Source of the DNA: Calothrix sp. NIES-4101 | GTDB taxonomy: Bacteria; Cyanobacteriota; Cyanobacteriia; Cyanobacteriales; Nostocaceae | Length of the DNA: 64,000 bases | Direction: 5' to 3' | Assembly: GCA_004296455.1 (NCBI GenBank) | Contig: AP018280.1 | Coordinates: 6,622,794-6,686,793, forward strand | Shown here: piece after piece, positions 58,434-64,000 of the stretch | How positions within the stretch are numbered: position 1 is the stretch's first letter | How the letters are laid out: every line of letters begins with the position of its first letter | Made by a program: the position numbers and the translations under genes | Notes under the pieces: generated by a model | The model's database searches: none | What the model saw: only the letters and a program-made list of their open reading frames with translations | What the model was told of the DNA's origin: nothing

Positions 58434-58542
58434 TCATATCATGTTCGGCTAATCACTGACAATTAAAATTTCTCCGCGTCCCCAAGTCCCTAAGTCCCCG
58501 TGTCAGTCTTGATAGTAAGTATTAAAAAAGACATTAGATTAC
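58434..58542 (+). repeat. Dispersed repeat family A, copy 3
   Basis: Left end ATATCATGTTCGG, CT-rich core (CTCCGCGTCCCCAAGTCCCT) and GTCAGTCTTGATAGTAAGT. The right end (GACATTAGATTAC) supplies the stop codon of the hydrolase gene ending at 58539, as copy 2 does for GH57. Confidence 0.6.
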
Positions 58543-59507
58543 TCATTTACATAACCTTCTGTGTCGGCGGGACTGTTTTGAGCTACAGGTACAGGTTGCT
58601 TGCAACTCTTACTAATCCAATCGAGAATGATGGGATTTATTTCTTCTGGACTTTCATCGTGAGGACAATGCCCAATGTTATCCAGGTTGAGAATTTCTAA
58701 TTTGGAATTGTATTGAGCGAAGATGGGTGCTAATGAAGGTGGAACAAATCTATCTTTGTTACCCCAAATTAATAACATGGGTACGTTGAGGTTGGGGAGG
58801 ATAGCTTTGACACTAGGACTAAAGTTTGCACCAATACTGGCTTTAAACAAAGCCGTAAATGCCCGTACTGAACCCCTATCCTGTGCTGGAGATGCAAATA
58901 TATCAATGAGTTCATCGGTGATAGCTTCGGGATTAGCATAAGCGATCGCAGCCCAACGACGCAAGACTCCTGGTTGCCGCAAGAAGTAAAATAAGGGTTT
59001 GAGAAATAATGGTGAAGCGACAAAATTCTTGATTGTTAATACCGTAGGGCGCAAAAATGGTGGTATCGCTTCCTGCTCTAATGAAGGATCAGGTAAACTC
59101 ATCATTACCAGTCCTTGCACCATATCCGGATAAGCTGAGGCTGCCGTAATCGAAACCAATGAACCTAATGAATTACCAATAATCACGACTGGCTTACGAA
59201 TAAATGCTTTCCAAAAGTCGTATACCTGTTCTGCCCACATATGGACACTGTAATTTACTGGCGCTTTTTCAGATGCACCCCATCCCAACATATCCAAGGC
59301 ATAAACGGTATGCTGTTGGCTAAATACTTCTAAATTTTGTCGCCAATGTCCAATGGAAGCACCAAAACCATGTAGCAAAATTATTGGTGTTGCTTCTGGA
59401 TTTTGACTGGCATTACGAATATACGTGTAACGTGTTTGCCAACCTCGCCAAACCCAATCCCGTTGATTCCCGACTCTGTGCTGCCACTCTATCAGCATTT
59501 TTCGCAC
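58539..59507 (-). CDS. Alpha/beta hydrolase
   Basis: 322 residues of the haloalkane-dehalogenase/epoxide-hydrolase-like alpha/beta hydrolase group. Oxyanion motif LLHGFGASIGHW, nucleophile elbow VIIGNSLGSL with Ser, catalytic Asp in WGNKDRFVPP, and catalytic His in IGHCPHDESPEEIN. A Ser nucleophile argues for an esterase or C-C hydrolase rather than a dehalogenase. Substrate unknown. The start may be at 59507 (MRKMLIEW) or 59498. Confidence 0.85.
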   Translation of the reverse strand: MRKMLIEWQHRVGNQRDWVWRGWQTRYTYIRNASQNPEATPIILLHGFGASIGHWRQNLEVFSQQHTVYALDMLGWGASEKAPVNYSVHMWAEQVYDFWKAFIRKPVVIIGNSLGSLVSITAASAYPDMVQGLVMMSLPDPSLEQEAIPPFLRPTVLTIKNFVASPLFLKPLFYFLRQPGVLRRWAAIAYANPEAITDELIDIFASPAQDRGSVRAFTALFKASIGANFSPSVKAILPNLNVPMLLIWGNKDRFVPPSLAPIFAQYNSKLEILNLDNIGHCPHDESPEEINPIILDWISKSCKQPVPVAQNSPADTEGYVNE

Positions 59508-59894: not shown

Positions 59895-60370
59895 ATTGTA
59901 AATTAAGGTTTGCAAAGAATTTTAACATTTTGGTTTTACAAAGTACTCTCGAAAATAGCATCTCAGTGCCTCTGGAAGTTGGATATCTGCAAACACTTTT
60001 TCCATGGACTTCACCATTAAAATACAAAAACAGACTATATGGAAACATGGCTATATATACTACAGCCCCCTAGTAGAATTACGGTATATATTACACATCA
60101 ATTGCTGTTCTGAAAGTGTTACAATAATTTGAAGTTTGCTGCTGCTGTGTAATTTAGGTTAACGATTTGAGAGAAAAACTAGGAGAGTGAGTAGAATGGC
60201 AACATAGAGCGATCGCACATTTATTGTGCAAATTCGCTACTCTATAAACATAGGTTTTAAATGTAGGTTCCTAGGCAGGCATCTGCATTGCTTATCTCAG
60301 TTTTTCTTCTGAGGCGTAGTTTTCCAAATCAACCCAAACTATAAAAATAAACAGCTCCTACAAATCATAC

Positions 60371-60904
60371 ATGTCTGTGATTGAGAAAAGAAGAAACCGC
60401 GATCTGCCCCAAATTAACGAGAGAATTCGCTTTCCCAAAATTCGGGTTATTGATACGGATGGTTCCCAGTTGGGTATTTTGACACCACAAGAAGCACAAA
60501 GGCTAGCCGACGAAAACGAGTTGGACTTGGTGCTACTGAGTGACAAAGCCGAACCACCTGTGTGCCGAATTATGGACTATGGGAAATACAAGTTTGAGCA
60601 AGAAAAAAAGGCACGGGAAGCAAGGAAAAAGCAGCATACTGCTGACGTGAAAGAAGTCAAGATGCGCTACAAAATAGAAGAACACGATTACAACGTTCGT
60701 GTCAAGCAGGCGGAGCGCTTCTTGAAAGATGGGGACAAGGTAAAAGCCACCGTCATGTTCCGGGGTCGAGAAATTCAACATAGCGATTTGGCAGAAACCT
60801 TACTCAAGCGCATGGCTAGTGATTTAGAGTCAGTGGGTGAGGTACAGCAATTGCCGAAGAAAGAAGGGCGGAACATGATGATGCTCATCTCTCCGAAGAA
60901 ATAA
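60371..60904 (+). CDS. infC: Translation initiation factor IF3, copy 1
   Basis: 177 residues. IF3 binds the 30S subunit, prevents 50S joining and checks start codons. N-terminal domain with [19 protein letters not shown] and [20 protein letters not shown]; linker with [20 protein letters not shown]-terminal domain with [40 protein letters not shown] and [16 protein letters not shown]. Start ATG at 60371 (ATG TCT GTG ATT GAG) without a clear Shine-Dalgarno. A second, diverged copy follows 246 bases downstream. Confidence 0.96.
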
Positions 60905-61150
60905 TCAAGAAAGGGAATATGATAATGGTTAGAGAGATGCTTTGTTAATAATGTGCCAATCGGGTTATGGAATTTTCTTGCTTTTGCGGTTTATCATAAC
61001 CTATCTAGCTGGTATTTTATTTTGAAGTGCCTCTCTTAACTTCTCTGAATAGACAATCGAGAAACAGAGTTAAGTTCAGTTCAATAGAGTTTCCAGTAGT
61101 AAGTCCAACATTTAACCCTAATTAAAGAGTTTACACCAATAAAAACGCCT

Positions 61151-61678
61151 GTGATTGAGAAAAAACGAACCCGCGACCTACCCCAAATCAACGAACGTAT
61201 TCGCTTTCCTGCGATTAGGTTAATTGATTCCGATAAAACCCAGTTGGGTATTATGTCTCCCCAAGAAGCGCTAGTTATAGCTGAGGAGAAAGGTCTGGAT
61301 TTGGTATTGTTGACTGATAAGGCTGACCCTCCAGTGTGTCAGATTATCAACTATGGTAAATTTAAGTACGAACAAGAGAAGAAAGCGCGGGAAGACCGCA
61401 AAGGGCAGAAAACCCAAGATGTCAAAGAAGTTAAGATGCGTTACAAAATAGAAGAACACGACTATAATGTGCGTGTCAAGAACGCCGAGCGCTTTCTTAA
61501 TGATAATGATAAGGTCAAAGTGACTGTAATGTTCCGAGGTCGGGAGATTCAGCATAGTCATTTAGCAGAAATTTTGTTGAAGCGTATGGCTGCTGATTTG
61601 GAACCCTATGGTGAGGTGCAGCAAGCACCGAAGAAAGAAGGGCGGAACATGATGATGCTGATTGCACCCAAGAAATGA
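61151..61678 (+). CDS. infC: Translation initiation factor IF3, copy 2
   Basis: 175 residues from a GTG at 61151. By eye about 137 of 175 aligned residues equal copy 1 (near 78%); all IF3 blocks are kept: [70 protein letters not shown]. The place of the copy 1 ATG is taken by ACG (ACG CCT GTG ATT GAG at 61145-61159). Initiation is therefore at GTG, ACG or perhaps ATT, and may be weak or IF3-regulated. A strong terminator follows. No frame defect, so the copy is likely functional. Confidence 0.92.
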
Positions 61679-61797
61679 TGTTTAGTTAATGATTAATATT
61701 TGGTGGTTATATAGTTAATCGGTGCTGGAAAACTAATATTTAATTTCTGAGCCCATCACTAATCACCAATCACAAAAATTTAAGTAAAAAATGATAT

Positions 61798-61847
61798 TCC
61801 TGAGCGCTGAGTGGGAAACATAATACTCAGTTGCTCAGGATTTTTTT
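61798..61847 (+). terminator. Rho-independent terminator after infC copy 2
   Basis: TCCTGAGC pairs with GCTCAGGA, an inner CTGAGT pairs with ACTCAG, and seven T residues follow at 61841-61847. It lies 120 bases after the second infC stop. Confidence 0.88.
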
Positions 61848-62023
61848 ATGACTAGGGAGTGGGATTAGGTTTGTTTAAATCATGACGGTAACGGTACAAC
61901 TGACGCGGAGATGGGGAGATAGGGGGACGCAAAGAAGAATTAATGATAAATAGATATATTTATCCCGTCTTCCCTCATTCCTTCTTGATTCGACAGGGTG
62001 ACTACAGCAGAAAATAGAATGGC

Positions 62024-64000
62024 ATGAAACTAAAAAATCACTGGTTGGCTGCATATAAAGGTGTTGTTGGGCAATTACTGCAATGGGTTAATCTCCGTCC
62101 GGAGGAGAGCGATCGCACTTGGCTAATGTTCGCTTGTTATACTGCGACATCAGTGGGATTACGGTGGACAGAAGATAGTACAGTTGCTTTGTTTTTGGAT
62201 AAATATGGGGCAACTTGGCTACCTGTGATTTATGTTGCCAGTGCTTGTATGGGAACCCTATTGGTTTTTTTTTACTCCTGGCTACAAAAAATCATGCCCT
62301 TACGTTGGGTGGTAGCTGCGATCGCACCTTGCATGTTTATCCCCTTGTTTTTGTTGCGTTTGGGTTTAGAAGTTCCTGCCTTGACGATAGGAGTAGTCTT
62401 TTTACTCAGGTTATGGGTTGATGCGTTTTATGTTCTCAATGACCTCAACACCTCAATTGCCGCGAATCAAGTTTTTAATATTCGTGAAATCAAGCGTACC
62501 TATCCCATCATTAGTAGTGGGTTACTAGTTGCAGATATTTTCAGTGGTTTTAGTTTGCCCTTTCTAGTCATATTTGTCGGACTCAACAATATTATCATTC
62601 CCATTTCGGCAGTTTTTATTATCGCCGGGGCACTCATTTTACGTTACCTGAGCCATCGTTACAAAACAGCCTTCCCCGATCATTTAACCAAACAAGCAGC
62701 GATCGCTCAAATTCAAGGTAGACCCCTTCTCTCCAATCAGCTAAAGAAATACTCGCTGTTATTGTTTGCCTTTTTTGGACTATTACAAATCATTGGTGTA
62801 TTAATCGATTTTCAGTATCTTACCCAAATTGAAATTAACTATAGCGATAAAGAAATTGCTAGCTTTTTAGGGATATTTGGCGGGATTACTGGGCTATGCG
62901 AACTATTCATGCAATTGTTTATCTCTAGTCGCATTTTGGAAAAGTTTGGAGTCTTTTTTACATCAGCCAGTTTACCAATTTGTGTAGGGATTTTGTTACC
63001 CTCGTCGGTGATGTTGCTGGGTTTGTTACCAATGACACAGGGCAATAGTTTTTTTTGGGGCTTGGTAATTCTGAAGTTCATTGATGAACTGCTGCGTTAT
63101 ACCTTTGTTGTCAGTGGTAGCCCCCTATTATTCCAACCAATACCAGACAAGTTCCGTAGTTACATCCAAACATTTGCTGGAGGAATTGCCGAGGCTTGGG
63201 GTACAGGTATCGCTGGCGTGGTGATTTTTGCCACTATCTGGTTGGCAACATTCATAATCCCCATTCCCTTAGATAAAAATTGGGTATTAGTTGTTGAGAC
63301 AACAATTGTATCTGGCTTATGTCTGGGAATACTTTGGGTATTGCGATCGCGCTATGTTGACTTGTTGGTTTTAAGTGCGGGAAGAGGACAACTAACAGGG
63401 GTGGATGTGGATGTGCGAACCTTTAAACAAGCTGTCGTCAAAACCTTGAAAGAAACTGGTTCCGTTGCCGATAAACGTTCTTGTATCGACTTGCTCACCC
63501 AAATTGACCCCCCAGGAGCAGTGGAAATTCTCGCACCGTTGTTAACTAAATTACCTTCAGAATTACAGACACCGACTTTGGAGGTGATGCTGACAGCAGG
63601 AGCTAGCCCCGTATACTTAGCTGATGTAAAACCTTTATTACAACGCTCTAAGACAGAAGTCACTCCAGAAGTCTTTGCACTGGCTTTGCGTTATGTCTGG
63701 TTAGTGGAAGAAAGCCCTAATTTAAGTAAGCTGGAACAATTCCTTTACCCCGAACAACATTCCCTAATTCGTGCGACAGCTGCGACGTTGCTGCTACGTC
63801 AAGGAACAACACAACAAAAGGTGACTGCCACCCGGACTCTGAAAACAATGCTGACGCATTCCCAAGAACAGGAACGGGTTAACGCGGTAAGAGCATTAAG
63901 CGGAGCAGTTTATTTGCAAACACTCCGCCTGTTGATTCCCACTTTATTGCAGGATAAATCCTTACGGGTACGCTGCGCTGTCTTAGAAATGATTGCGGCT
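62024..64000 (+). CDS. Nucleotide-translocase-like membrane protein with HEAT-like helices, 5' part
   Basis: 659 codons are visible and the frame is open at the right edge. Residues about 30-440 contain 10-12 membrane helices in an MFS/NTT (ATP/ADP translocase-like, Npt1/Npt2) arrangement: WLMFACYTATSVGLRWTEDS, LTIGVVFLLRLWVDAFYVLN, IKRTYPIISSGLLVADIFSG, FWGLVILKFIDELLRYTFVV, PIPDKFRSYIQTFAGGIAEA. From about 460 onward soluble helical pairs look like HEAT repeats (EILAPLLTKLPSELQTPTLE, ALRYVWLVEESPN, RVNAVRALSGAVYLQTLRLL). Similar cyanobacterial proteins often continue into a cyclic-nucleotide-binding domain; that part would lie outside. Transported substrate unknown. Start ATG at 62024, weak ribosome binding site. 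Confidence 0.75.
   Translation, partial: MKLKNHWLAAYKGVVGQLLQWVNLRPEESDRTWLMFACYTATSVGLRWTEDSTVALFLDKYGATWLPVIYVASACMGTLLVFFYSWLQKIMPLRWVVAAIAPCMFIPLFLLRLGLEVPALTIGVVFLLRLWVDAFYVLNDLNTSIAANQVFNIREIKRTYPIISSGLLVADIFSGFSLPFLVIFVGLNNIIIPISAVFIIAGALILRYLSHRYKTAFPDHLTKQAAIAQIQGRPLLSNQLKKYSLLLFAFFGLLQIIGVLIDFQYLTQIEINYSDKEIASFLGIFGGITGLCELFMQLFISSRILEKFGVFFTSASLPICVGILLPSSVMLLGLLPMTQGNSFFWGLVILKFIDELLRYTFVVSGSPLLFQPIPDKFRSYIQTFAGGIAEAWGTGIAGVVIFATIWLATFIIPIPLDKNWVLVVETTIVSGLCLGILWVLRSRYVDLLVLSAGRGQLTGVDVDVRTFKQAVVKTLKETGSVADKRSCIDLLTQIDPPGAVEILAPLLTKLPSELQTPTLEVMLTAGASPVYLADVKPLLQRSKTEVTPEVFALALRYVWLVEESPNLSKLEQFLYPEQHSLIRATAATLLLRQGTTQQKVTATRTLKTMLTHSQEQERVNAVRALSGAVYLQTLRLLIPTLLQDKSLRVRCAVLEMIAA

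Follow-up and report, generated by a model that had tools for sequence, protein, structure and literature searches.

The window, a stretch of 64,000 nucleotides from Calothrix sp. NIES-4101, belongs to a contig of 7.2 Mb in a genome of 7.6 Mb and carries two intact genes for initiation factor IF3 (infC) on the same strand, with 246 bp between the stop codon of the first (copy 1) and the GTG of the second (copy 2). The features of the locus are as follows.

58539-59507, minus strand: alpha/beta hydrolase gene (Pfam), a conserved neighbour
60117-60197, plus strand: conserved promoter-like infC block ending in TAGAAT (from alignment; boundaries set by eye)
60371-60904, plus strand: copy 1, the native infC, with an ATG start and 177 aa; the family-wide orthologue, in conserved gene order
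60905-61150, plus strand: spacer and leader of copy 2, the last 26 nt of which resemble Nostoc-type infC leaders
61151-61678, plus strand: copy 2, a diverged infC, with a GTG start and 175 aa; ACG at 61145
61794-61848, plus strand: conserved hairpin with a T-run, found 3' of infC in relatives and 3' of copy 2 here
62024-64000, plus strand: long co-directed gene, open at the window end, a conserved neighbour whose sole Pfam match is a HEAT repeat below the cut-off

The two proteins are identical at 137 of 175 residues (78%), and the genes are 74.6% identical as DNA. Both copies match the Pfam domains IF3_N (PF05198) and IF3_C (PF00707) above the curated cut-offs and pass the cut-off of the NCBIfam infC equivalog TIGR00168, covering nearly the whole profile; at 78% identity, there is no doubt about the fold of copy 2. 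The first-pass annotation had described two full-length tandem IF3 genes, and its coordinates, strand, 246-bp spacing and identity of about 78% were all right. An assembly artefact, which it had named as an outcome that would refute it, is very unlikely, because the copies differ at about half of their third codon positions and because the same tandem order is found in a second assembly, that of the metagenome-assembled genome (MAG) Calothrix sp. CSU_2_0. We also rejected gene conversion as a force homogenizing the copies: identity at third positions is 0.51 in the window genome, 0.47 in CSU_2_0 and 0.46-0.50 across genomes, and since it is alike within and across genomes there has been no general homogenization. 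A 32-nt run near the 3' ends (window positions 60854-60885 and 61628-61659, placed by eye) is identical between the copies, as against runs of at most 20 nt between copies of different genomes, and may reflect a small local gene conversion.

Where family loci extend far enough, most have the order divergent hydrolase, single infC, co-directed long gene. The window hydrolase is 83-85% identical to those of seven sister-genus loci and less similar to those of other family loci among the matches listed. In all three genomes of the genus that have copy 2 (the window genome, CSU_2_0 and Calothrix elsteri), the hairpin comes after copy 2 and not after copy 1. Across Nostocaceae, the post-infC hairpin is represented by 71 distinct 55-mers, and of 14 base pairs tested, 13 are kept in 68-71 of the 71 and one in 43; the loop, GGGAAA.ATAAT, is nearly invariant (the search pattern itself fixed part of the loop and the inner stem), and the strict pattern has matches in 8 of 21 genomes, one in each. 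A mere terminator would not need so fixed a loop. At gathering scores, Rfam gave no known RNA element near the genes, hairpin included, and four sub-threshold matches look like chance.

A scan for terminator-like sites on the plus strand between the copies returned none with a loop limit of 8; the same scan misses the hairpin at 61794-61848, because its loop exceeds that limit. Neither a consensus promoter scan nor alignment revealed a promoter of copy 2's own in the spacer, and the scan did not score the block at 60117-60197 as a promoter either. A table of strong transcription starts in the filamentous Nodularia includes two for infC (PMC3610870). We favor read-through from the copy 1 promoter as the probable means by which copy 2 is transcribed.

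The remark in the first-pass annotation that bacteria normally have one infC is too simple for this genome, which also has a short, divergent IF3 gene elsewhere (locus L003, G000:C1:4151959-4152396). This third gene is 39% identical to infC, its IF3_C match ends at position 71 of 86, indicating a shortened C-terminal domain, and it adjoins recombinase-like and RNA-binding-protein-like genes (labels by eye). At 1e-35 the short type is present in 148 of 217 family genomes, with up to 3 copies per genome. Copy 2 is not of this type, being full-length and 78% identical to copy 1, whereas the short type is about 40% identical and has the shortened C-terminal domain.

Copy 2 in related genomes

At 1e-8, a cut-off lenient enough to let in the short IF3 type as well, 214 of the 217 family genomes had an infC match. 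The main infC is 90-94% identical to copy 1 among the matches listed and 87-88% identical in three further genomes. Relatives of copy 2 above 84% identity were found in only two others of the 217, both of the same genus: Calothrix elsteri CCALA 953 (96%; G027, locus L062) and the MAG CSU_2_0 (95%; G028, locus L063). Copy 2 was thus found in 3 of 217 family genomes, all of this genus, and a search of the 217 family and 388 order genomes gave no possible donor above 84% identity.

Pairs of infC genes are rare. At 1e-70, two were found in four of the 217 family genomes (the window genome G000, G028, G002 and G094) and in one of the 388 order genomes (G000), 57 of which gave no match at that threshold; at 1e-45, G000 and G275 were the only two of 386 phylum genomes (completeness 90% or more) to show a pair. 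The three surveys overlap, and G027 and G028 fall outside the order and phylum draws as listed. We rejected G002, G094 and G275 as comparable tandem pairs: in G002 the two infC genes are alike, inverted and separated by 72 kb; G094, which is 38% contaminated, has its two genes on different contigs, and so does G275. In Amazonocrinis nigriterrae CENA67, two infC regions (L073 and L077) lie 72 kb apart, inverted, on one scaffold, and this pair is possibly an assembly palindrome. We found no report of tandem infC in Calothrix in the openly licensed PMC literature, which does not prove that none exists.

CSU_2_0 has the same tandem pair as the window (L063, copy 1 from 2220 and copy 2 from 2995), and searches with IF3_C and with the short type at 1e-35 gave no third IF3 gene in this 96% complete MAG. 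In C. elsteri, represented by one draft genome of 800 contigs, the Pfam search gave a single IF3_C match, which is copy 2, with N- and C-terminal IF3 domains above the curated cut-offs; the short divergent type gave no hit there at 1e-35. A remnant of copy 1 lies inside the contig at L062:2653-2772. It can be aligned to the final ~39 codons of CSU_2_0 copy 1, allowing for substitutions and a gap of one base, and its 3' flank is collinear on to copy 2. Upstream of the remnant, C. elsteri keeps the promoter-like block ending in TAGAAT, ~390 nt before the copy 2 start (hand count). The deletion has therefore moved copy 2 closer behind the old infC promoter region, from which we infer that it is expressed. 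At this locus the old gene is lost, a homologue stands in its place and the neighbours are kept, which is the pattern of in situ displacement. Because C. elsteri keeps only copy 2 together with a decayed remnant of copy 1, copy 2 seems able to act as the sole IF3. This is the strongest comparative datum we have, and it argues against a strictly specialized role for copy 2.

Start codon, constraint and residue changes of copy 2

At position 61145, copy 2 of the window has ACG where both orthologues (C. elsteri and CSU_2_0) have ATG, so the GTG two codons on is its likely start. Two codons ahead of the valine of VIEK, 105 of 122 distinct leaders carry ATG; the remaining 17 include nine with ACG (one of them window copy 2, and three with ATG directly before) and three that reflect a register shift of the script. 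For other cyanobacterial families, 80 loci were given, of which 16 were unreadable and 5 were duplicates, leaving 59 distinct leaders with ATG (15), ACG (14), no CCx-GTG (13), ACA (9), AAG (4), ATA (2), GAA (1) or a stop (1); L256 was misfiled under AAG, its real arrangement being ACG CTT GTG. ACG CCT followed by GTG is a common form of infC leader there, accounting for 14 of the 59. At the loci outside the family (L169-L188 and L222-L281), infC is frequently without an in-frame ATG, with ACG or ACA in its place and CCT GTG following. The CCT or CCA ahead of the GTG is conserved, even though initiation at GTG would leave it untranslated.

One cyanobacterial locus from outside the family, L281, reads TAG CCT GTG. 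Since a stop directly precedes CCT GTG there, GTG is the plain infC start in L281, and ACG is accordingly not the main reading for copy 2, though a conceivable one. Annotations of two red-algal plastids also start infC at GTG (PMC3667073), which together with L281 makes GTG initiation the simpler reading for copy 2. Given the L281 stop, we set aside as the main reading a non-AUG (ACG) start acting as an IF3-feedback device.

The first-pass annotation had also claimed that the second copy is retained with a function, and the substitution pattern upholds this. Pairwise omega (NG86) for copy 2 is 0.053 between the window and CSU_2_0, 0.041 between the window and C. elsteri and 0.015 between CSU_2_0 and C. 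elsteri (for copy 1, window/CSU_2_0, it is 0.049), and the orthologues keep frame and length. Judged by purifying selection, copy 2 is functional. A purpose-written branch-class codon model with uniform rates among sites gave, with copy 2 placed beside Nostoc, omega values of 0.028 (background), 0.113 (copy 2 stem), 0.033 (copy 2 crown) and 0.045 (copy 1), and, with copy 2 placed within the genus, 0.028, 0.094, 0.034 and 0.040, respectively. Four omega classes instead of one (3 extra parameters) raised twice the log likelihood by 17.0 in the Nostoc placement and by 9.2 in the in-genus placement. The stem value is rough, since rates do not vary among sites in this model and synonymous changes on that branch approach saturation. 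Relaxed selection, named beforehand as a refuting outcome, was thus seen to the extent that stem omega is 3-4 times the background, but this value is far below 1 and the crown is near the background. We read the values as a faster episode in copy 2 followed by normal constraint.

At 138 of 169 columns of the alignment, at least 95% of 149 other cyanobacterial sequences agree, and all three copy 2 sequences depart at 18 of these, whereas the median other sequence departs at 0 and the highest at 13. The changes (copy 1 numbering) are V26L, T29S, G31K, S57T, R66Q, M68I, D69N, F75Y, A84D, K87G, H89K, A91Q, Q113N, K119N, G121N, A126V/I, D139H and S174A. At 12 of the 18 sites the copy 2 residue occurs in none of the 149, and at the other 6 it occurs in one to four. 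Where the conserved motif is CRIMDYGK, copy 2 reads CQIINYGK, with Q, I and N in place of R, M and D. Residue 66, which by alignment is also residue 66 of E. coli IF3, is Q in 3 of 3 copy 2 sequences and R in copy 1, in 149 of 149 others and in three aligned PDB chains. By its near-invariant residues, copy 2 is not an unaltered canonical IF3, a class narrower than the IF3 family, and copy 1 keeps R66. Net charge (K+R-D-E) is 7 in both copies.

Origin of copy 2 and comparison with known systems

In a tree of 152 sequences, built after one of odd length had been removed and with no reading obtained from loci L179 and L187, the copy 2 sequences form a fully supported monophyletic group on a long stem, the placement of which is weakly supported. 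A nucleotide AU test under a partitioned model, with 48 sequences and six trees (one free, five constrained), rejected none of them. Under GY+F3X4+G4 in IQ-TREE, with eight of nine topologies, the AU test rejected copy 2 as the sister of copy 1 (p 0.0013), as the sister of the sister genus (0.016) and outside the family (0.036). It kept a duplication before the sister genus (0.41), the base of the Calothrix group (0.52), a position as sister of three other Calothrix-group sequences (0.46) and two Nostoc-side placements (0.51 and 0.50); an SH test on the same eight topologies rejects none. Under a codon model, then, the split of copy 2 from the native infC is older than the genus, and it probably does predate the genus.

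The residues and the leader of copy 2 bear on where it came from. At ten sites that separate a Calothrix/sister-genus set (9 sequences) from a Nostoc set (27), both chosen by hand, copy 2 is in the Nostoc state at 8 (unanimously at 6, and in two of its three sequences at 2); one of the remaining sites is mixed and the other has a third residue. The 26-nt leader of CSU_2_0 copy 2 has a mean identity of 0.66 to Nostoc leaders (n = 42 of 43), as against 0.44 to other leaders of the Calothrix group (n = 13), 0.34 to the sister genus (n = 7) and 0.27 and 0.38 to copy 1, in an ungapped comparison that penalizes an indel in the Calothrix group. The best local alignments of the window spacer to other leaders do not beat shuffles. 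Taken together, a foreign origin seems the likelier source and an old duplication with loss elsewhere the less likely, both being tenable.

We propose, with a probability of roughly 0.58, that copy 2 is an older or foreign IF3 that is displacing infC in situ and that the window shows an intermediate stage. Copy 2 would be a bona fide, fast-diverged IF3, the line of which split from the native infC before the genus parted from its sister genus and which ended up between the native gene and the hairpin that follows infC in relatives. Its leader and residues would fit acquisition from another member of the Nostocaceae by recombination, an old duplication lost elsewhere being our second choice. 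Probably cotranscribed with the native gene by read-through from its promoter, copy 2 would act on the 30S subunit like an ordinary IF3, presumably with full activity. Under the proposal, the native copy became dispensable because copy 2 can do the whole job; two genomes still keep both, and C. elsteri has deleted copy 1, leaving copy 2 behind the old promoter.

Vertical descent alone could also account for the pair, at either of two depths. A duplication before the sister-genus split, with copy 2 then lost in the sister genus and elsewhere, is possible, if clearly less probable than displacement: codon AU keeps copy 2 at the base of copy 1 plus the sister genus and at the base of the Calothrix group, but this history requires loss in the seven sister-genus genomes sampled, the hairpin stands directly 3' of infC with no remnant seen in the sister-genus loci read, and our purpose-written codon model without rate variation (nine topologies, 18 sequences) puts it 13.6 lnL units behind (standard error 7.7). 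The other history is a tandem duplication within the genus, after which copy 2 diverged fast and C. elsteri lost one of two redundant genes at random, with both copies doing the same work as a matter of dosage or neutral redundancy. The adjacency and shared strand of the copies speak for it; the raised omega of the copy 2 stem agrees with it, and the nucleotide-model AU test keeps it (p-AU 0.176). We nevertheless think it improbable, as codon+gamma AU rejects it, the purpose-written codon model finds it 23.3 lnL units worse (standard error 8.9), and copy 2 lacks residues and leader features common to copy 1 and the sister genus.

A different kind of account holds that copy 2 is specialized for particular mRNAs or conditions, such as nitrogen starvation or light color, and is kept beside copy 1 for that purpose. 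The first-pass annotation had offered dosage, or an IF3 specialized for stress or a differentiated cell type, as reasons for retention; either may still apply, strict specialization being weakened by C. elsteri. Purifying selection on both copies in two genomes, the changes at near-invariant residues and the reported regulatory role of one IF3 in Fremyella speak for a specialized role. We find it doubtful, however, since the searches of C. elsteri gave copy 2 as its sole IF3, so that copy 2 covers the general function there, and since the spacer yielded no separate promoter for copy 2. It is also conceivable, though we would not expect it, that copy 2 is an IF3 of altered initiation stringency (R66Q, M68I and D69N at the end of the N domain, and a changed linker) that first worked beside a normal IF3 and then took over whole-cell initiation in C. 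elsteri; the start of window copy 2 (ATG to ACG, with GTG downstream) might then be under IF3 feedback. If so, the genus and its sister would offer a natural series of old only, both, and new only for the evolution of initiation fidelity.

Against known systems, both window copies are members of the IF3 family in being full-length, two-domain proteins above the curated cut-offs; copy 2 differs from the family in its alteration at the RIMDYGK motif and at other columns that hardly vary in 149 cyanobacterial sequences. IF3 is essential in bacteria where it has been studied. The series of genomes described here suggests that a free-living cell tolerates substitutions at nearly invariant IF3 residues. 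Fremyella diplosiphon reportedly has two IF3 genes, infCa and infCb (Gutu et al. 2013, PNAS). It is likewise a filamentous cyanobacterium that has multiple IF3 genes, including a highly divergent one, but the window pair is tandem and of the main infC type, and one relative keeps only the second copy. The short gene L003 may be of the Fremyella infCb kind.

One Nostoc study counts infC among 31 universal conserved marker proteins (PMC5987646); infC trees may compare nonorthologous genes in Calothrix and its relatives. E. coli infC, with its AUU start and IF3 autocontrol (works cited in PMC9845219), resembles copy 2 in an unusual start context, ACG standing at the old start position, but in copy 2 a usable GTG follows. 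A known parallel to displacement is that of the ribosomal proteins L15 and L30 of Thermus thermophilus, described as in situ xenologous gene displacement (PMC1274311): there too a core translation gene was replaced in its own locus with the gene order unbroken. The difference is that in the present case two genomes still represent the intermediate stage with both copies, and a third shows the loss of the old copy through its remnant; the foreign origin is likely but not proven. Because the intermediate and the end point are both preserved in close relatives, the in-place swap of a core translation gene is testable in this genus.
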